DNA from: Fervidobacterium sp.
GTDB taxonomy: Bacteria > Thermotogota > Thermotogae > Thermotogales > Fervidobacteriaceae
Assembly: GCA_026419195.1 (NCBI GenBank)
Contig: JANZZV010000013.1
Location: 1-54,017, forward strand
Length of the DNA: 54,017 bases
Direction: 5' to 3'
Shown: one piece after another, positions 31,278 through 42,690 of the stretch
Position numbering within the stretch: position 1 is the stretch's first letter
Layout of the letters: each line of letters starts with the position of its first letter
Notes under the pieces: generated by a model
Told to the model about the DNA's origin: nothing
What the model saw: only the letters and a program-made list of their open reading frames with translations
Database searches by the model: none
Position numbers and translations under genes: made by a program

Positions 31278-33749
31278 ATGGCAAACGAAATTAGGAAAAG
31301 AGAATCAATTGCTAAAATAAAATTCAAACTTTTCATTAAGAATTTCAAAAAGAACTGGGCGCTTTTCAAAGAAAGTAAAATGGGAATGTTTGGATTGTGG
31401 GTGATAATTGCATTTGGAATTTTTGGTGCCCTTTCACCTATTGTACTAAGCTTTCTTGATCCAAGTATATATGATCCAGTAGTTGGTTTAGATTCACGAA
31501 TATTGTCTTCAAAATACATAACAGATTATCTTTCTACACAAAACCTTGTAAAAGGTATTGAAATCCCTGCGGCACAACAATGGGTTTACTCATTTATGGA
31601 CAAGGGTGAAACATTCAAATCATCGATGGAAAACTTAGTGAGAAATTCACAGTATGAGATAATGACAACGTATGCACCAGATAGCTTTAGACACTTTCTT
31701 GATACTATAGCAGATAGTTATATACCTGCAAAAGAAAGACTATATTTCCAAACGAGCATTTCTGAACTTGTTGATAAAGGGATTATAAAGTTTTCCGCTA
31801 TATCTTCGGTAAAAGATATTGGAAATAGGGACAAATTTTCATTCCAAGATTTCTCCGAGTTACTTCAGAAGGTTGACCACAAAACACTGGCTATTGCACT
31901 TTCACCTTACGCAGATTCAGATGAAGTTTCTCGCGCAATGCTTTGGTTTAGAAGTTTGAATAGAGAAAAGCAAGAAGTTGTGGAAGAATTTAACTCATTG
32001 ATTACTCAAACGCACTCCGAAGATCAAATTAAATCTGCTCAGGAAAAGGTATTGGAAGTTGCAAAAAGTGTTGCCGATGTAAGTACCACAGGACAACTCT
32101 ATGTTCAATCAGACGCACAGTTGTCCGAAGTTATTCAAAATGATACTGTAGCTATAGAATCACTAGTCTTTGCTGCCGCATACAGTATTATACCTGACTT
32201 GATTGTTTTATCAAAAGAAAACAATTCAATTGAGCAAGAAATAAAAAAAGGGAAATTTGCTCCGCTATTTGAAATCGCAAAATCGAAGCTTTCTGATTTG
32301 TCGAAAAAAGAAATTTACGAACCTGCCTTGACAAAAGCTAAAAAGACGGTAAGTAATCTGGAAAAAGAAATGCAAGATTTAGGATTATCAGTGTTACATA
32401 CAGATACCGAGCGTTTCTTAGAGTTGTACGCTGGTATGGAATTAGCAAAAGTTTCTGTTGACATTCGTCCAGAACTTAGAGCCAAACTGGAAAATCAGAT
32501 ATCCAGATACTCCAAAACAGTCAGGCAAGGATATATTTACGAATTGAACAATATATTCATCAAAATCGCTACTGCAAGATCATTTATGGCTTCATTACTT
32601 AATAATGAAAACATACCGGAAAGTTATGAGTCCCTTGGCAGCCAAGTTATAAAGGTTTTATCAGAACCTATAGCATCACTTATTGCCTATGCTTTTCAGG
32701 GTACTAATAAACTTGATAAAGTAATTTCAAATATAGAAAATTCACAGCTTGATGACTTTAAACGTATTGATATAGTTGAAAAATTGAAATCCGCCAAAGA
32801 ACCTGTAGAAGCGGTTAGATTTTTAATCAACGAAGCTGAAATGAATGAAAACATATATCTCAGAATGGTTAATGAGCACAAGCAATATCTTGAAGATCCT
32901 TCAGAATGGTCAAATATGGAAAATATAAGAAAAATTGAAAAACCACAAAAAACTGCTTGGTCAAAGGATTTTGCCGAGAAAAAGCTTGTAGAGATATTCA
33001 ACGTGCTTTCTCTTACTAACAAAATTGGTGTTGGTCATCCACTACCACCAAGTAGATGGCATTGGCTTGGTACAGATCCTGTTGGTAGAGATATACTTAT
33101 CCAGCTTATGGTTAGTACTCCTAGTGAATTTGTACTCGGTGTGCTTGCAGCACTTATTACAGTTGTAATAGGTACTATAATAGGTACAGCGGCTGCTTAT
33201 TACGGCGGATTAGTTGATGTAATATTCATGCGTATAGCCGATCTTATGATGCTATTTCCATCCATAGCATTTCTCATTGTTCTTTCAGGTTTTATGACGA
33301 TGAACCTTTTCAAATTGGCTTTAATTCTTGGGTTACTTGGTGGTTTCGGTGGCATAACACTTGTTTTAAAAGCACAAGCGTTAACAATTAAGGTGAAGCC
33401 TTACATCGATGCAGCAAGGGTTTCAGGTGGTAGCCATGGATACATAATATTCAATCATATCATTCCAAATGTAATGCCCCTTTCGTTCCTTTACATGATG
33501 TTTAATGTAACTGGAGCCGTTTTTTCAGAGGCTGTATTGAGCTTTTTTGGCTTGATGAAAGTTAGGATGTCTTGGGGATTGATGATAAACACAGTATGGA
33601 GTTCCGGTTATCTTGGCTCTGGAAATATAGGTTCTTACTGGTGGATGTGGGTACCAGCAGGTGGTGCTATAACATTGCTGTGTGCTGCCTTCTATTTCCT
33701 TGGACGTGGTCTTGAAGAAATCGTTAACCCAAGACTCAGAAAGAGGTGA
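31278..33749 (+). CDS. ABC importer permease, DppC family, with ~530-residue extracytoplasmic insertion
   Basis: 823 residues against a normal ~280-350. The first membrane helix is at ~36-60 (GMFGLWVIIAFGIFGALSPIV) after the usual basic cytoplasmic start. The rest of the normal permease, from HWLGTDPVGRD at ~595, is intact: membrane helices, the EAA loop YIDAARVSGGS and a C-terminal RGLEEIVNPRLRKR. Between these, residues ~61-590 form a hydrophilic, mostly helical domain on the outer face, with no motif I recognise. It could contact the binding protein or the cell wall. The frame is uninterrupted and codon use is as in neighbours, so it is not a frameshift artefact. Confidence 0.88.
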   Translation: MANEIRKRESIAKIKFKLFIKNFKKNWALFKESKMGMFGLWVIIAFGIFGALSPIVLSFLDPSIYDPVVGLDSRILSSKYITDYLSTQNLVKGIEIPAAQQWVYSFMDKGETFKSSMENLVRNSQYEIMTTYAPDSFRHFLDTIADSYIPAKERLYFQTSISELVDKGIIKFSAISSVKDIGNRDKFSFQDFSELLQKVDHKTLAIALSPYADSDEVSRAMLWFRSLNREKQEVVEEFNSLITQTHSEDQIKSAQEKVLEVAKSVADVSTTGQLYVQSDAQLSEVIQNDTVAIESLVFAAAYSIIPDLIVLSKENNSIEQEIKKGKFAPLFEIAKSKLSDLSKKEIYEPALTKAKKTVSNLEKEMQDLGLSVLHTDTERFLELYAGMELAKVSVDIRPELRAKLENQISRYSKTVRQGYIYELNNIFIKIATARSFMASLLNNENIPESYESLGSQVIKVLSEPIASLIAYAFQGTNKLDKVISNIENSQLDDFKRIDIVEKLKSAKEPVEAVRFLINEAEMNENIYLRMVNEHKQYLEDPSEWSNMENIRKIEKPQKTAWSKDFAEKKLVEIFNVLSLTNKIGVGHPLPPSRWHWLGTDPVGRDILIQLMVSTPSEFVLGVLAALITVVIGTIIGTAAAYYGGLVDVIFMRIADLMMLFPSIAFLIVLSGFMTMNLFKLALILGLLGGFGGITLVLKAQALTIKVKPYIDAARVSGGSHGYIIFNHIIPNVMPLSFLYMMFNVTGAVFSEAVLSFFGLMKVRMSWGLMINTVWSSGYLGSGNIGSYWWMWVPAGGAITLLCAAFYFLGRGLEEIVNPRLRKR

Positions 33750-35751: not shown

Positions 35752-35790
35752 AACCAAACCGCTTGCAATTTGCAGGCGGTTTGATTTTTT
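35752..35790 (+). terminator. Terminator of the importer operon
   Basis: caaaccgc and gcggtttg (35755-35762 and 35776-35783) form the stem, followed by A and T6. It separates importer and amylase transcripts. Confidence 0.8.
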
Positions 35791-35813: not shown

Positions 35814-35862
35814 TGGAAATGTTCCAAATGAGACTTTTTCAAGTATTTGCATTGATTATAAT
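35814..35862 (+). promoter_or_regulatory. Amylase promoter with inverted-repeat operator
   Basis: The near-palindrome TGGAAATGTTCCA (35814-35826) lies exactly 30 bp before TATAAT (35857-35862). The -35 region is poor. The same site, reverse-complemented and at the same spacing, stands before the DOMON lipoprotein gene at 37862. This fits an activator site centred near -49. Confidence 0.6.
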
Positions 35863-35905
35863 TCATAAAGTGAGCTAAAATATAATTGAAAAGGAGGTAG
35901 TATAT

Positions 35906-37855
35906 ATGAAAAAAAGTTTTAGTATCTTTATTATTATTTTTTTCATCACAGCTTTTCTACTTTTTGGTTGCTCATATAAACCCGTTGACCAAGAATTGGA
36001 ACAACTTCCCGTAGAAGAGCTCCCAGCAAACCAAGGAATTGTTACCTACAACCTAGATACCAACGAGCTTGTAGTTGATATTAAAGAAGACAACCTGAGC
36101 GTTTTCAAAGTGTTCAAGGATAAAACTCAAGAACAACTATTAGGACATTTCGTTGGTGGAATATTCACTTGTGAGTTTTCTGGGGAAGAGTTTTGGAATT
36201 TAGAAAGTCTGAGAATTGATATCTTAAGAAACAACCAGATCTACAAAACGTTAAGAATAACAAAGGAAAATATAAAAAAATTATCATTGACTATTCCCTC
36301 AACTTCAAATACTATGTACAAATTGTTTATAAGATCCTTTTATGACAGTACAGGGGATGGAATTGGAGACTTCAACGGTGTTGTACACAAAGTTAGCTAT
36401 CTGAAAGAACTTGGAATAGACACTATTTGGTTCTTGCCTTTCAACAGGGGAAAATCCTATCATTGTTATGATGTAGAAGATTACTATAATGTTGAACCAG
36501 ATTACGGAACATTAAGAGACATAGATAATATGATAAAAGTACTAAACGGAAATGGTATTAAGGTAATTATGGATTTAGTTGTAAACCATACAGCAGATAC
36601 ACATCCTTGGTTCTTAGATGCTATTGAGAAAACAACCTCTTCTGCATACTGGAATTACTACATCATGAGTCTAACCCAACCGGTAAATACAAATCATTGG
36701 CATTGGAAAATCAATTCAAAAGGTCAGAAAGTTTGGTATTTTGGTCTGTTCGACAGTTCAATGCCTGATTTGAATTATGATAATCCTAAAGTTTTAGAAG
36801 AAGTAAAGAAGATTATAGACTTTTGGATAATAATGGGAGTTGATGGTTTTAGATTGGATGCAGCAAAACATTACTATGGTTGGGATTGGGATGATGGAAT
36901 ACAAAAGTCAGCAAACGTTGCAAAACAATTGGAAAGCTATATAAGAAGTAAACTTGGCAACAATTGTATTATAGTAAGTGAAGTATACGATGGAAATCCT
37001 CATGTGCTCTTGCAATTTGCACCAATGCCCGTGTTCAATTTCAAGTTGATGTACGAACTAACGTCCAATTTCGAGGGCAGAGATAATTTACTTAGAGATT
37101 CCATTAACTGGGTGAATTCCATTTCCTCTCAATACTTTTTAAGTACTTATCATTTTCCTTTTATAGATAATCACGATCTTAATAGAATGGTATCTGTACT
37201 TGTAGACCAGAAATATTCTGGGAATGTTATTAATGGTACGAAACAATACCTTATTTTAAATGCTTTATTGCTTTCACTTAATGGAATGCCTGCAATATAC
37301 TACGGAAACGAAATAGGATTGCGTGGTTGGAAATGGTCTTCTGAACCGTGGGATATTCCCGTACGTGAGCCTATGCAATGGTACAAAAACCAACAAGGCA
37401 TTGGTCAAACAACTTGGACAAAGCCAATTTACCAATCAAAAAACATAACTTTTGGTAACGCAAATGTAGATGGTGCAATATATGATAATCCAAGCGATGG
37501 TATCTCTGTCGAAGAACAACAAAGTGGTTATACAATATTGAACTTCTTCAAACAATTCATAACTCTAAGGAAAACTTATTTTGCGCTGAGCCGTGGAACC
37601 ATTGCAATAGAAAGAGACTGGAAGAACTTGTATGTCATTAAAAGAACTCACCAGAATCAAGAGGTACTAGTTCTTGTAAACCTTGATCCTACATATTCAA
37701 ACACATACACAATACCATCTGGATACCGATGGGTATGGTACGCTTTCTTTAACGGGAATAATTTTGAATTTGGAAGTAAGCTTATGCCCCAGCTTAGCCA
37801 AAATACGAATTGGACAATCAATCCAAGGCAAGTATACGTCTTTGTAAAGAACTGA
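35906..37855 (+). CDS. GH13 alpha-amylase lipoprotein
   Basis: 649 residues. A lipoprotein signal ends at LLFGCS (Cys22). Residues ~40-130 form a beta-rich domain I do not recognise. The GH13 (beta/alpha)8 barrel follows with the four conserved regions: DLVVNH (223-228), GFRLDAAKH with nucleophile Asp318, SEVYD with acid/base Glu359, and FIDNHD with Asp424. It should cleave alpha-1,4 links of starch, glycogen or maltodextrins. Its layout recalls AmyA of Thermotoga maritima, a toga-associated lipoprotein. Strong aaggaggt site. It opens the surface glycan cluster. Confidence 0.9.
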   Translation: MKKSFSIFIIIFFITAFLLFGCSYKPVDQELEQLPVEELPANQGIVTYNLDTNELVVDIKEDNLSVFKVFKDKTQEQLLGHFVGGIFTCEFSGEEFWNLESLRIDILRNNQIYKTLRITKENIKKLSLTIPSTSNTMYKLFIRSFYDSTGDGIGDFNGVVHKVSYLKELGIDTIWFLPFNRGKSYHCYDVEDYYNVEPDYGTLRDIDNMIKVLNGNGIKVIMDLVVNHTADTHPWFLDAIEKTTSSAYWNYYIMSLTQPVNTNHWHWKINSKGQKVWYFGLFDSSMPDLNYDNPKVLEEVKKIIDFWIIMGVDGFRLDAAKHYYGWDWDDGIQKSANVAKQLESYIRSKLGNNCIIVSEVYDGNPHVLLQFAPMPVFNFKLMYELTSNFEGRDNLLRDSINWVNSISSQYFLSTYHFPFIDNHDLNRMVSVLVDQKYSGNVINGTKQYLILNALLLSLNGMPAIYYGNEIGLRGWKWSSEPWDIPVREPMQWYKNQQGIGQTTWTKPIYQSKNITFGNANVDGAIYDNPSDGISVEEQQSGYTILNFFKQFITLRKTYFALSRGTIAIERDWKNLYVIKRTHQNQEVLVLVNLDPTYSNTYTIPSGYRWVWYAFFNGNNFEFGSKLMPQLSQNTNWTINPRQVYVFVKN

Positions 37856-37861
37856 ACGTTA

Positions 37862-37910
37862 TGGAACATTTCCAATGTATCAAAAATCTGAGATCGAGAA
37901 GTTGTATAAT
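37862..37910 (+). promoter_or_regulatory. DOMON-lipoprotein promoter with the same operator
   Basis: TGGAACATTTCCA (37862-37874), reverse complement of the site at 35814, is 30 bp before TATAAT (37905-37910), a spacing identical to the amylase promoter. A 14-base core TGGAACATTTCCAA is shared. The -35 is poor. Confidence 0.6.
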
Positions 37911-37946
37911 ATTAAACGCATATTTTTTAAAAGGGAGGTAGATGGT

Positions 37947-38621
37947 ATGAAAAAGTTGCTGTTTATAACTCTCGCGGTAATGGTTTCTTTATTTGTGGTA
38001 AGTTGTGCTTTATTTGAAAAACCACCTCTACTTAAAACAGTAACTGTGGATGCAACGTTGACAGACTGGGCAAGTTATCTATATGAGGATGCTCCTAATG
38101 ACTCTAAATGGGGAACTGACAACGAAATTCACAAAGCTGGTATACTCTTTGATGCGACTAATCTTTACATAGCTGGAGAATTCACAAAAGCAGGATATAA
38201 CAACTTCATGGTTATGGTCGATCTTTCTGGTGTTACCGGTGCTCCAGATACCTCAAAGCATGAATGGGGAAGAAGTTATAAATTCGAGAAAGGTGATGTT
38301 GATTTCATAATTGAAACTTGGGGAGATGGATACAAAGCTTGGAGATTTACAAGTCAAGAAGCAACCGAAGTAACTGGAACACTTAAATCAACAGAAGTTG
38401 ATGGCAAAAAGAGAATAGAATTTTCTATTCCACTATCAAAACTTGGGGTAAGTAATTCAAGTAAACTCTCAGCTAAGGCGGTATTCGTTCTAACTGGTGG
38501 TAAGTATGGTGGCAAACAATGGGCAGGAGATTTCTATCCAGACCAAGGTTTTGAGACAGGAGAAGGAGGTTACACAGCACCTGTGGTAATCAAAAAGACA
38601 ATTTCCAATCCAACAAAATAG
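37947..38621 (+). CDS. Lipoprotein with DOMON/CBM9-like carbohydrate-binding domain
   Basis: 224 residues. Lipobox VVSCA (Cys20), then a single ~190-residue beta-sandwich with the pattern of DOMON/CBM9-like sugar-binding modules: VDATLTDWASYL, ILFDATNLYIAGEF, FMVMVDLSG, IEFSIPLSKLGV and a C-terminal FYPDQGFETGEGG. Related domains occur as C-terminal parts of glucan-degrading enzymes. The ATG at 37947 follows gggaggt; an upstream in-frame TTG-type extension would lack a lipoprotein signal. It probably binds starch or maltodextrins at the cell surface; binding itself is inferred. Confidence 0.75.
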   Translation: MKKLLFITLAVMVSLFVVSCALFEKPPLLKTVTVDATLTDWASYLYEDAPNDSKWGTDNEIHKAGILFDATNLYIAGEFTKAGYNNFMVMVDLSGVTGAPDTSKHEWGRSYKFEKGDVDFIIETWGDGYKAWRFTSQEATEVTGTLKSTEVDGKKRIEFSIPLSKLGVSNSSKLSAKAVFVLTGGKYGGKQWAGDFYPDQGFETGEGGYTAPVVIKKTISNPTK

Positions 38622-38653
38622 CTCTATAATTCGTAATTTTCCGAATAGCTTAC

Positions 38654-38675
38654 AGGGGGCTTAAGCCCCCTTTTT
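38654..38675 (+). terminator. Hairpin terminator or attenuator inside the surface glycan cluster
   Basis: The palindrome agggggcttaagccccct followed by T4 lies between the DOMON lipoprotein and the CBM48 lipoprotein genes, 31 bp before the next start. It may end or reduce transcription into the downstream genes. Confidence 0.7.
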
Positions 38676-38705
38676 ACAAGTACAAAAATCTGGAGGTGAC
38701 TTACC

Positions 38706-39437
38706 TTGAAACATTCAAAATATAAACTTGTGTTGCCTACCTTTTTAGTCCTACTTTTCGTATTGTTTGGTTGTATGAAAATATTAAACTTACAAATCGA
38801 AGATGGCATATACGTTGTTGGAGAATGGAATGAATGGATACCTACGTCAGGTGACAAAATGGTTTATTCAGAAGATGAAGGTTGCTATATCTTCGAGCTT
38901 CCGATAACATCTATGGTATTTAAACCGAGTCGTTCTGGGAATGAATACTCTATAGGATGGTACAAAGTAATATATAAAAGTCAAGGAGTTACCAAGGTAT
39001 CGTCAGGGATACCAGTGTGGAAAGAAAATCTAAACTCAGAGAAATTAATTATCTATGCGAAACCAAGTGAAATGACCAACGGACAACCAACAGGAGTAGG
39101 TGACAGCGAAAAATTCAAAACAACACTGAGTAAATGGTACGTTGGTGGAGAATTCAACAACTGGAACCTTTCAAATGGAGAGATGATTTGGGATAACACA
39201 GAGAAAGTATTTAAGTATACATTGACCAATTTCAACGCATCAAAGCAGACTTATCTGTTCAAAGTGACAAGAAATGTCGGAGATTGGAAACCGTGGGAAT
39301 TCAATTATGATGGAAAAAAATATGATGCTGGGTTTGATAACGCCGTTTTGCGACTTGAAAGAGCAGGGCTGGTGGACATAATAATCACATTTGATCCCAA
39401 GACTTCTAAGATAGGAACGATTGTCAACTACAAGTGA
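38706..39437 (+). CDS. Lipoprotein with two CBM48-like (glycogen/starch-binding) modules
   Basis: 243 residues. A lipoprotein signal with Cys23 (LFGCM). Two modules of the CBM48/AMPK glycogen-binding type are suggested by GIYVVGEWNEW at ~34-44 and KWYVGGEFNNWNL at ~143-155, the latter with the characteristic Gly-x-Phe-Asn-x-Trp motif, followed by YLFKVTRNVGDWKPW. The first module is more divergent. No catalytic domain. Start is TTG at 38706 with a perfect ggaggtga 6 bases upstream. Likely a surface starch-binding protein comparable in role to SusE/SusF, by inference. Confidence 0.75.
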   Translation: MKHSKYKLVLPTFLVLLFVLFGCMKILNLQIEDGIYVVGEWNEWIPTSGDKMVYSEDEGCYIFELPITSMVFKPSRSGNEYSIGWYKVIYKSQGVTKVSSGIPVWKENLNSEKLIIYAKPSEMTNGQPTGVGDSEKFKTTLSKWYVGGEFNNWNLSNGEMIWDNTEKVFKYTLTNFNASKQTYLFKVTRNVGDWKPWEFNYDGKKYDAGFDNAVLRLERAGLVDIIITFDPKTSKIGTIVNYK

Positions 39438-39448
39438 GGTGAAATAAC

Positions 39449-40639
39449 ATGAACTTAAAACTTACAGCCTTATTTATTGTTTTCACCGTCTTCTCCATCA
39501 CTGCCTTTGCATTGCAAACCAATTATTCAGCAAATTTTTCGTTTACAGTTGATTTTTCACAACAACCTTTTTCGACAAACTTTGGAAGCGAATTTAGAAT
39601 AATGGGGAGTTCTCTTGGAACGGGTTATGATTTATCTTTTAGCCTAAAAGGTAGTAATCTTGAATCCGCTAAGCTTACGCTTAAATTTGAAGAGCTAAAG
39701 TTATCACTTTATGATAATCAAATATTCGGTACAACAAATGATCCAATTGTGTTATATCAAATAACAACCGGACAAAACGGAGTAGAGATCGGTTATGGTA
39801 ATTATAAATTAGTTTTGTTTAATAGTTTAGACCTAATGTATTTGTCTGGTAATATAAATGAAATAGTATTCATCGTTGGCAAAAGAGGAAACTTAATTGA
39901 TACTGCTGCATCTTATAATATAAGATTATCCAGCGCAAATTTAAAAACAGAATGTATTATTCAGAACATTACGTCATTTGATCCCAAAAATTTTGTTGGT
40001 CTTGCTTTATTATATGATCAAAAACAAAATTGGGGTGTTAGATATGTTTTTGCTGGAGGCAAGGATACAAAATTGTCTTACAGTCCTCAGGAAATCAACG
40101 AGCAAAATAACTTGGTATTGTGGTACAAGTTTGGTAATTCGCCATCATTCAATACTTATTTGACTACATATTTTGGTTTCGAAAATCCAACTCGAGATCT
40201 AATTGATAATTCTGTAGTTGGTTTGGATATTACCTTAGGGCAAATGTACTTAAACCTCAAAAAAACTGGTTTTTCGAGCATATCTGGTTTACTACCTAAC
40301 AACTGGGGCAAATTTTATATAGCAGCGGGAACGCAATTTTCAATCTTTGATTTTTCAACAAAGTTAGGCTATGGCTTTGGAAAGCCGATCCATAATTCTA
40401 TAAGTACAATTGGCGAGTTATTTTACATTGAGGCAAGTAGAAATTTTGGAAATATTTCTTTATTTTCTAAATACCAAAAAATAGTTGGTTATTATGAAGA
40501 AAAGGATTTCTTCTATTCTGAGATAAAGTTTACTGGCTTTTCCAATGGTGATGTCGTTGTAAGAGTAGGTAACGGCGATTTTGATAAAGACAATCCTTTC
40601 AAACCCGTTGGAGGTATTTACTTTAACCTTTGGTGGTAA
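39449..40639 (+). CDS. Predicted outer-membrane (toga) beta-barrel protein
   Basis: 396 residues with a signal peptide (LTALFIVFTVFSITAFA, cleavage about residue 21). The mature part is alternating polar/hydrophobic strands rich in Gly, Tyr, Phe and Asn (LSFSLKGSNL, YYIEASRNFGNISLFSKY-like patterns) and ends FNLWW, an aromatic C-terminus as in outer-membrane barrels. I recognise no named family. It starts 12 bp after the CBM48 lipoprotein, so both are translated from the same message. A porin for maltodextrins is a reasonable guess from context only. Confidence 0.65.
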   Translation: MNLKLTALFIVFTVFSITAFALQTNYSANFSFTVDFSQQPFSTNFGSEFRIMGSSLGTGYDLSFSLKGSNLESAKLTLKFEELKLSLYDNQIFGTTNDPIVLYQITTGQNGVEIGYGNYKLVLFNSLDLMYLSGNINEIVFIVGKRGNLIDTAASYNIRLSSANLKTECIIQNITSFDPKNFVGLALLYDQKQNWGVRYVFAGGKDTKLSYSPQEINEQNNLVLWYKFGNSPSFNTYLTTYFGFENPTRDLIDNSVVGLDITLGQMYLNLKKTGFSSISGLLPNNWGKFYIAAGTQFSIFDFSTKLGYGFGKPIHNSISTIGELFYIEASRNFGNISLFSKYQKIVGYYEEKDFFYSEIKFTGFSNGDVVVRVGNGDFDKDNPFKPVGGIYFNLWW

Positions 40640-40685
40640 TTTAAAGCTATAAATATAAATTAAACTTAGGGAGGTGTACTTTCGA

Positions 40686-42614
40686 ATGCGTGTTTTAAGT
40701 TTTCTCAGGATAATAACAATGTTCGGGCTAATGGTTTCTTTAGTTGTTTTAGGTGGAGTGGCTTATAAAGATGGGAAAGTTGTGTTTACGTTCAAGACGG
40801 ATATTAAAGCAGACGTAGTTTACCTTGCTGGAAATTTCAACAACTGGAATCCCAGTTTATGGGCAATGAAACTCCTCAACGGAGTCTGGACATATGAGGT
40901 AGAACTCAAGCCTGGAAGCTATGAATATAAGTATGTTATAGATGGAAAAAACTGGAAAGAGGATCCAGAAGCTCCATCGTTTGTTGATGATGGGTTCGGC
41001 GGAAAGAATGGTGCTTTCACACTAACGGCTGATGGAAAAATACTTGGAAGTGGAAAGATAAGTCAAACTAAAAAGTATGAGCTAAATACGAAAAGAGAAA
41101 ATACGATATTTGTTGATCCAGAGGGTTATGTTGTGCTAAGGTTCTACAATAAAGATGCCAAATACGTTTTCATAGCAGGTTCATTCAATAACTGGAAAGA
41201 TAATGCTACTGAGTGTTATTATATTGAAAATGGTTGGTGGGAAGCCGTATTAGAAATACAACCTGGTGTTTATGAGTACAAATTTGTTGTGGATGGTAAA
41301 TGGGTTCTAGATCCAAATGCCTTTGCTTATGCTGACGATGGATTCGGCGGAAAGAATGGTGTCTTTGAACTTGTTAGAGAAGGTGGAAAGTTGATAGTAA
41401 GAGCACCTGTTAGCGCGGACAAACCATCCACCGAGAAAACTTACCAGACGGTAACTACCCAAAAAGTCAAACCTGGACTCTCTGTGGATGGAAAGAACGT
41501 TGTCTTTGCGGTTAAGAAAGAAAATGCTCAAGAAGCCTATTTGGCAGGATCCTTCAATAATTGGAATCCAAGAGCTATGAAAATGCAACTTGTAGAAGGT
41601 TATTGGATTGCAAATCTGCCATTACAACCAGGAACGCATAAATACAAATATGTTTTTGTGATTGGTGGTTCAGATGTGTGGGAAGAAGATCCGAATGCTC
41701 CATCATATGAACCAGACGGGTATGGTGGAAAAAACGGTGTTTTTAAACTTGTTGAAAAGGATGGTCTATTATCGATCGAGGGAATTGAACAAAAGGCTGG
41801 TGGATTATCTGTAAAAGGTAAGTATGAGTTCGAGTACAAGTTCAAAACAGATAGTGCAAAATACTTTGTTTCTTCTGGCTTTACAAACTCATTGGCGCTA
41901 CGTTTTGAACCAACAGCTGACTTTGCCATAGCACTGAAATACGATGGGGCGGATATATCAGAAGCGTTAATCAATTTTTCTCAAGAAAATTACTCTATAG
42001 TCATGTACTATAAATTACCTTTGAATTTTCTATCTGACATGACTTTCGCTGAAAGGAACACAGGGATTTTAGGAAAGTTGAAATTCTTGAATAAATACTA
42101 CCTCGTTGGTGGCTTGGTTCATAAGAATAATCAGTTACCTTGGATTGTAGGAATAGATGGTGAAACCTTTAAGTTATTTATGGCGAACAGCTATTTTACA
42201 GATGAGTTAGAATTCTTAGGTGAAATTATTTTAAGTAGCCCGTTTAATCTCTCAATATGTGGAATGTACAGCTTAAATAATACCTTCTTTGCAAGTATTA
42301 ACTTTTCAGCAGAGCAGTTTGGATTGTATTTGTCCATTTACAACTCAAAGTTAAGTTCCGAAATATATACAAAATTAGGACAAGATAAATTCAAACTTGG
42401 AGGGGCTTACGATTTGTATTACGGCGATTCAGAAATGTACGCTGCTTACTTGACACAACAAATTGAATATTACATTGGTTCTAATCTTTCTAATGTTGAA
42501 TTTAAGATTACAGCTCTTGGTAAAGATAGGGACATTGGTTTGGGCGTAAAAACAGAATTATCTGATCCTATAAATAAGACAAACCTGACAATATTTGGAA
42601 ACATTAGGTTCTAA
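40686..42614 (+). CDS. Exported protein: three tandem CBM48 modules fused to a C-terminal beta-barrel-like domain
   Basis: 642 residues. A signal peptide covers ~1-25. Modules lie at ~28-113, 145-230 and 268-356; each has (L/I)AGxFNNW, an EYK(Y/F) strand and DP(E/N)A...DGFGGKNG or DGYGGKNG. These are CBM48/AMPK-type glycogen-binding units. From ~378 to the end the protein is amphipathic beta strands, Tyr/Phe/Asn-rich, ending FGNIRF with a terminal Phe, as in outer-membrane barrels. I know of no described family with this order. The ATG at 40686 follows gggaggtg. Last gene of the surface glycan cluster. Confidence 0.8.
   Translation: MRVLSFLRIITMFGLMVSLVVLGGVAYKDGKVVFTFKTDIKADVVYLAGNFNNWNPSLWAMKLLNGVWTYEVELKPGSYEYKYVIDGKNWKEDPEAPSFVDDGFGGKNGAFTLTADGKILGSGKISQTKKYELNTKRENTIFVDPEGYVVLRFYNKDAKYVFIAGSFNNWKDNATECYYIENGWWEAVLEIQPGVYEYKFVVDGKWVLDPNAFAYADDGFGGKNGVFELVREGGKLIVRAPVSADKPSTEKTYQTVTTQKVKPGLSVDGKNVVFAVKKENAQEAYLAGSFNNWNPRAMKMQLVEGYWIANLPLQPGTHKYKYVFVIGGSDVWEEDPNAPSYEPDGYGGKNGVFKLVEKDGLLSIEGIEQKAGGLSVKGKYEFEYKFKTDSAKYFVSSGFTNSLALRFEPTADFAIALKYDGADISEALINFSQENYSIVMYYKLPLNFLSDMTFAERNTGILGKLKFLNKYYLVGGLVHKNNQLPWIVGIDGETFKLFMANSYFTDELEFLGEIILSSPFNLSICGMYSLNNTFFASINFSAEQFGLYLSIYNSKLSSEIYTKLGQDKFKLGGAYDLYYGDSEMYAAYLTQQIEYYIGSNLSNVEFKITALGKDRDIGLGVKTELSDPINKTNLTIFGNIRF
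40767..41753 (+). repeat. Three tandem CBM48-coding repeats
   Basis: Three in-frame units of ~258-267 bp (about 40767-41024, 41118-41375 and 41487-41753). Units 1 and 2 share the 19-base identity ttcggcggaaagaatggtg near their ends; unit 3 is more diverged. This suggests internal duplication. Confidence 0.8.
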
Positions 42615-42640
42615 ACATCCATAATTTACTGAGTACAAAG

Positions 42641-42690
42641 ATACAAACAGCTCCCTTTCAAACATTTTCAGGGGGCTGTTTGTATTTTTG
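42641..42690 (+). terminator. Strong terminator of the surface glycan cluster
   Basis: A 16-bp stem (42641-42656 with 42670-42685, one G-U pair), 13-base loop, then T5. Confidence 0.9.

Follow-up and report, generated by a model that had tools for sequence, protein, structure and literature searches.

Five consecutive genes on the forward strand of a Fervidobacterium sp. contig (JANZZV010000013.1, assembly GCA_026419195.1; the window is the whole analysed stretch of 54,017 nucleotides) occupy positions 35906-42614 and raise the question of how alpha-glucans could be bound at the toga and brought past it. An earlier note, made from the sequence alone, had read these genes as an exported alpha-glucan system with two barrels and CBM48 modules. 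They are real, form a single conserved unit and support that reading: the operon probably encodes an outer-envelope system for alpha-glucan capture and entry. The evidence consists of the conserved gene order, an amylase slot, a pullulanase in some relatives, invariant glucan-contact residues, the barrel folds and a BamA-type protein. Further support comes from the toga-anchored AmyA of Thermotoga maritima, the presence of MalE in 11 genomes and a candidate operator linking the operon to a CBM48 paralogue.

CBM48 modules, predicted barrels and lipoproteins

All five products are predicted to be exported or lipid-anchored, judging by their N-termini. Genes 1-3 carry lipobox-type signals (LFGC, VVSC and LFGC, respectively), while genes 4 and 5 have hydrophobic N-termini without cysteine and an aromatic last residue.

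Gene 5 (40686-42614) combines three CBM48 modules with a C-terminal predicted barrel. The ATG at 40686 is likely to be its start, with a GGAGGTG site in front. Two curated Pfam profiles of the CBM48/AMPK type exceed their cut-offs and match three stretches each (PF16561, E 3.5e-33; PF02922, E 7.8e-25); the modules span approximately residues 30-117, 147-236 and 268-362. Every copy contains a W, K, W and N set which is invariant among all relatives having that copy and corresponds to the glucan-contact positions W100, K126, W133 and N150 of AMPK beta. The aligned W and K positions are also visible in alignments of gene 5 to 5ot1 and 2f15. Homology to the glycogen-binding domain of AMPK beta and to pullulanase CBM48 is clear and includes the same contact residues, but here three copies precede a predicted outer-membrane barrel, with no enzyme or kinase attached. 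A match to NF052315 (type IX secretion system plug, NCBIfam) was below cut-off and is accounted for by the CBM48-like fold.

Structure models were built with AlphaFold2 on 20-row alignments. For gene 4 (39449-40639), whose product ends in LWW, the model shows the signal peptide and then 24 strands (pLDDT 84.6, pTM 0.70). In the gene 5 model three beta-sandwich modules come first, and from residue 380 onwards about 20 strands fill the rest of the protein (pLDDT 83.8, pTM 0.43). The best Foldseek matches in PDB were outer-membrane barrels (ushers, porins and the OprD type) for gene 4, and porins and CBM48 proteins for gene 5. Both predicted folds are strand meanders running to a conserved C-terminal aromatic residue (Phe646 of gene 5 is present in 20 of 20 rows) in proteins with an export signal, as in outer-membrane beta-barrels, and the genome encodes an Omp85/BamA-type protein. 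For both barrels, first suspected from the sequence, the models reach fair to good confidence. Neither Pfam nor NCBIfam has a family that matches gene 4, and Pfam offers no credible one for the C-terminal region of gene 5. Possible homology between the two barrels (the one of gene 5 spans residues 380-645) is hinted at by an hhalign value of 94%, which beta-rich repeats can inflate.

Gene 1 (35906-37855) codes for a GH13 alpha-amylase lipoprotein. It scores 236 bits against PF00128 (cut-off 22), its closest relative among PDB sequences is 5m99 (559 bits), and D318, E359 and D424 sit in the motifs expected for the Asp/Glu/Asp triad of an AmyA-type GH13 enzyme, which bears out the original call. 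5m99 is an amylase of Thermotoga petrophila assigned to GH13_36 (PMC10480278). AmyA of T. maritima is a toga-anchored lipoprotein (PMC3387000, PMC4529897) whose catalytic domain was reported to face outwards (PMC4529897). Some Fervidobacterium amylases are about 230 residues longer at the N-terminus (883 and 874 residues in L035:14037-16688 and L036:13902-16526, compared to 649 in gene 1); the extension has no clear family match.

Gene 3 (38706-39437) encodes a lipoprotein with two CBM48-like modules. The earlier CBM48-like label is weaker than proposed, being supported by profile comparison (hhalign 97.6% against the CBM48 of gene 5) and by weak Pfam matches of some relatives; the gene 3 product itself has no match in Pfam. 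In its second module W153 is kept in 18 of 19 cases, K186 and W194 in all 19. Gene 2 (37947-38621) encodes a lipoprotein conserved in a 13-row alignment. Its DOMON/CBM9-like label gained no support in three tests and stays putative: no Pfam or PDB match was found, and NCBIfam returned a weak match to TIGR04145 (E 5e-6). An hhalign comparison of gene 2 with a Glucodextran_C paralogue aligned just 31 residues, which is uninformative.

Related modules were observed elsewhere. Past its first few rows, a scan of named genomes returned mostly CBM48 domains of other proteins. The Glucodextran_C paralogue (L052:8243-10231, on another contig, C10, of the same genome) has two CBM48 modules; a LacI-type regulator and a sugar ATP-binding cassette (ABC) importer are encoded nearby, and a one-mismatch operator copy lies about 90 nucleotides upstream. 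Thermosipho-type genomes encode proteins of about 1,190 residues in which a GH57 domain is flanked by the same modules. In proteins of Cloacimonadota and Treponema (L092:8926-10845, L106:3409-5430, L120:8920-11100) a single CBM48 at the N-terminus is followed by a long, beta-rich stretch whose last residue is Phe; judging by sequence, fusions of CBM48 to a barrel may exist in further diderm phyla.

Conservation of the gene order in Thermotogota

A profile search with gene 4 across the phylum Thermotogota detected the gene in 33 out of 103 genomes, the 33 belonging to three families, and the gene neighbourhood was inspected in all 33. Genes 3, 4 and 5 are consecutive in every one, and nearly all have a further lipoprotein gene in front. 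Conservation of the order in relatives is thus established, and because it extends over 33 genomes a chance arrangement is excluded. Relatives with names include Fervidobacterium sp. UBA5837, Thermosipho metagenome-assembled genomes and Marinitoga lauensis. In one genome each, genes 3 and 4 are broken up into two reading frames; the split gene 4 of M. lauensis (L124:7536-8911, 338 and 127 residues) reflects a frameshift or a sequencing error. Since the gene 4 tree divides by family, it suggests descent from a class-level ancestor with loss elsewhere.

An amylase gene stands in front of the core in 18 of the 33 genomes. It belongs to the family of gene 1 in seven Fervidobacteriaceae (this genome included) and six Thermotoga-type genomes. 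An amylase of another family takes its place in five Petrotogaceae-type genomes, split in one of them; the three that were tested all exceed the NF006970 cut-off. That two unrelated amylases occupy one slot argues well for an alpha-glucan as the substrate. In Thermotoga-type genomes a pullulanase gene comes after the cluster.

The import step and candidate regulatory elements

The family-5 importer encoded just upstream had been proposed as the inner-membrane step of the system. It is on the same strand and directly upstream of the amylase in five of the seven cluster-bearing Fervidobacterium genomes (G000, G003, G006, G007 and G008), and some family-5 binding proteins in PDB do bind mannosides (4pfu). 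Nevertheless, we find this role very improbable. An intrinsic terminator at 35755-35783 on the forward strand (13-pair stem and T run; -21.1 kcal/mol, z -5.2, better than every shuffle) closes the importer operon and divides it from the amylase gene. The adjacency is patchy: three unrelated genes separate importer and cluster in G005, the importer is not beside the cluster in G001, and none of the neighbourhoods of the 33 genomes shows it outside Fervidobacterium. The best solved relative of the binding protein is the oligopeptide-binding AppA (1xoc). Finally, MalEFG is available. In Thermotoga-type genomes it is the neighbour of the cluster, and on another contig of this genome a protein 61% identical to Thermotoga-type MalE is followed by MalF- and MalG-sized genes. 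A Thermotoga-type MalE was found in all 11 genomes tested. Because of the terminator, the Fervidobacterium-limited adjacency and the distribution of MalE, MalEFG is the better candidate for the final import step. Permease C of the family-5 importer (31278-33749) is 823 residues long; about 570 of them separate the segment at its N-terminus (26-57) from the permease domain (632-822), and the long form also occurs in other Fervidobacterium.

A palindromic candidate operator, TGGAANNNTTCCA, precedes the amylase gene, gene 2 and the CBM48 paralogue. The first copy in the window, TGGAAATGTTCCA (35814-35826), is an exact palindrome located 92 nucleotides before gene 1; none of 300 shuffled versions of the upstream region gave its like. 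The second, TGGAACATTTCCA (37862-37874), its reverse complement, lies 85 nucleotides before gene 2. Exact copies stand before gene 2 at 95-124 nucleotides in G001, G003, G005 and G007, of which G003 and G007 are near-identical in this region. Paralogues with two CBM48 modules have upstream copies with 0 or 1 mismatch in several genomes, including this one. In Fervidobacterium all examined exact TGGAAAYGTTCCA sites outside genes stand before these genes, i.e., gene 1, gene 2 and the CBM48 paralogues. Genome-wide, TGGAANNNTTCCA occurs in 15 places versus 3 for the control, but 11 of the 12 places outside the window are inside reading frames, so the count alone is not evidence and the argument is the conserved position. 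In Thermosipho-type genomes (L198, L201, L202, L204 and L212-L215) TGGAACGTTTCCA is located between the CTP synthase gene and a CinA-like gene; across genera, therefore, the 13-mer is not restricted to starch genes.

The interval between genes 2 and 3 contains a G-rich hairpin followed by a T run (38654-38675, forward strand), a candidate attenuator or stabiliser. A strong G-rich hairpin was found in this interval in all 13 Fervidobacteriaceae tested; the stem sequences differ and T often follows. An intercistronic palindrome in the malE-malF interval of Escherichia coli is thought to lower downstream expression. By analogy, the hairpin could keep the barrels less strongly expressed than the lipoproteins encoded before them. 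We infer that operator and hairpin are regulatory elements. Another hairpin 3' of gene 5 (42646-42680, forward strand; -19.3 kcal/mol, z -4.8, equalled by no shuffle) is the likely end of the operon.

Proposed path of alpha-glucans and comparison with known systems

The path we propose would begin with the amylase lipoprotein cutting starch or glycogen at the toga. The two other lipoproteins and the CBM48 modules would hold the alpha-glucan chains. The 24-strand barrel, possibly along with the 20-strand one, would pass malto-oligosaccharides across the outer membrane, after which MalEFG, encoded elsewhere in the genome, would import them into the cell. When a C-terminal barrel has an even number of strands, the domain in front of it stays in the periplasm. 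This usual barrel topology favours a periplasmic orientation of the modelled CBM48 modules, which may retain oligosaccharides that have entered. Their export to the surface is possible as well; such a placement, which the earlier note's surface reading needs, requires passage through the barrel.

Surface exposure is the essence of another explanation, in which the gene 5 barrel is an anchor with no channel and the CBM48 modules outside hold cells and amylase on starch. Modules placed before a C-terminal barrel would resemble the order of autotransporters, and the amylase of the cluster faces outwards in T. maritima. Yet about 20 strands are predicted for gene 5 against 12 in classical autotransporter barrels, and no autotransporter domain was matched in Pfam, which makes the scaffold unlikely.

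Several points weigh against capture and entry of external alpha-glucans. No Foldseek TM-score exceeds 0.5, and with values this low the strand number and closure of the barrels are provisional. In some Fervidobacterium, and outside the genus, the operator is missing or poorly matched. The core persists with no amylase beside it in Marinitoga-type and Thermosipho-type genomes, as might be expected if the barrels and binding proteins had a structural or house-keeping role and recognised an alpha-glucan made by the cell (an envelope polysaccharide or glycogen) instead of food starch. Such a role is, in our judgement, quite improbable given the adjacent amylases of two families in 18 of 33 genomes, the pullulanase of Thermotoga-type genomes and the candidate operator common to the operon and other CBM48 genes.

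Capture and entry by this operon can be compared with two known systems. Bacteroides Sus (SusCDEFG) likewise brings together, in one operon, an amylase at the surface, a number of binding lipoproteins and a pore in the outer membrane (here predicted). The Fervidobacterium genome differs in having neither a TonB-dependent receptor nor SusD, in the fusion of CBM48 to a barrel and in encoding the ABC importer elsewhere. PF00593 and PF14322, both found in a Bacteroides control, are absent from the genome, and the operon is not a Sus-type polysaccharide utilisation locus; the earlier impression of Sus-like logic without a TonB protein was accurate. A predicted porin working with an ABC importer for maltodextrins recalls LamB and MalEFG, but the LamB family (PF02264) is absent from this genome, i.e., no maltoporin was found, and gene 4 matches no known family.

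The closest counterpart is in T. maritima, where TM1840-TM1845 (amyA to pulA), beside mal2, comprise the orthologous amylase, lipoproteins, barrel and CBM48-barrel in the same order. TM1840-TM1845 are tabulated together, within the order TM1836-TM1845, in PMC2246101, and the order MalEFG, amylase, four genes, pullulanase in our Thermotoga-type loci is the same; we infer their identity with the TM loci from order and size. The Thermotoga cluster is flanked by MalEFG and the pullulanase gene, while the Fervidobacterium cluster adjoins neither. The claim that no such set had been described in Thermotogales therefore goes too far. From Thermotoga, both the amylase and the cluster as such were already known. 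We found no functional account of TM1841-TM1844 in the open-access literature, and, as far as that literature shows, there is no earlier description of the envelope part, its occurrence in three families, the CBM48-barrel protein, the candidate operator or the hairpin. As established toga proteins, PMC3387000 names only OmpA1, OmpB and two hydrolases.

Tentatively, we suggest that the operon represents TonB-independent glycan entry through the outer membrane: a pair of barrels, one with a CBM48 array, might select and concentrate maltodextrins, a function conserved since the ancestor of the three families and situated beside amyA in Thermotoga. The candidate operator is offered for the maltose/maltodextrin pathway, for which the Thermotoga regulon map lists no regulator (PMC3750489, Table 1), and the operon provides named candidates, with Thermotoga counterparts, for the surface binding of alpha-glucans and their entry past the toga.

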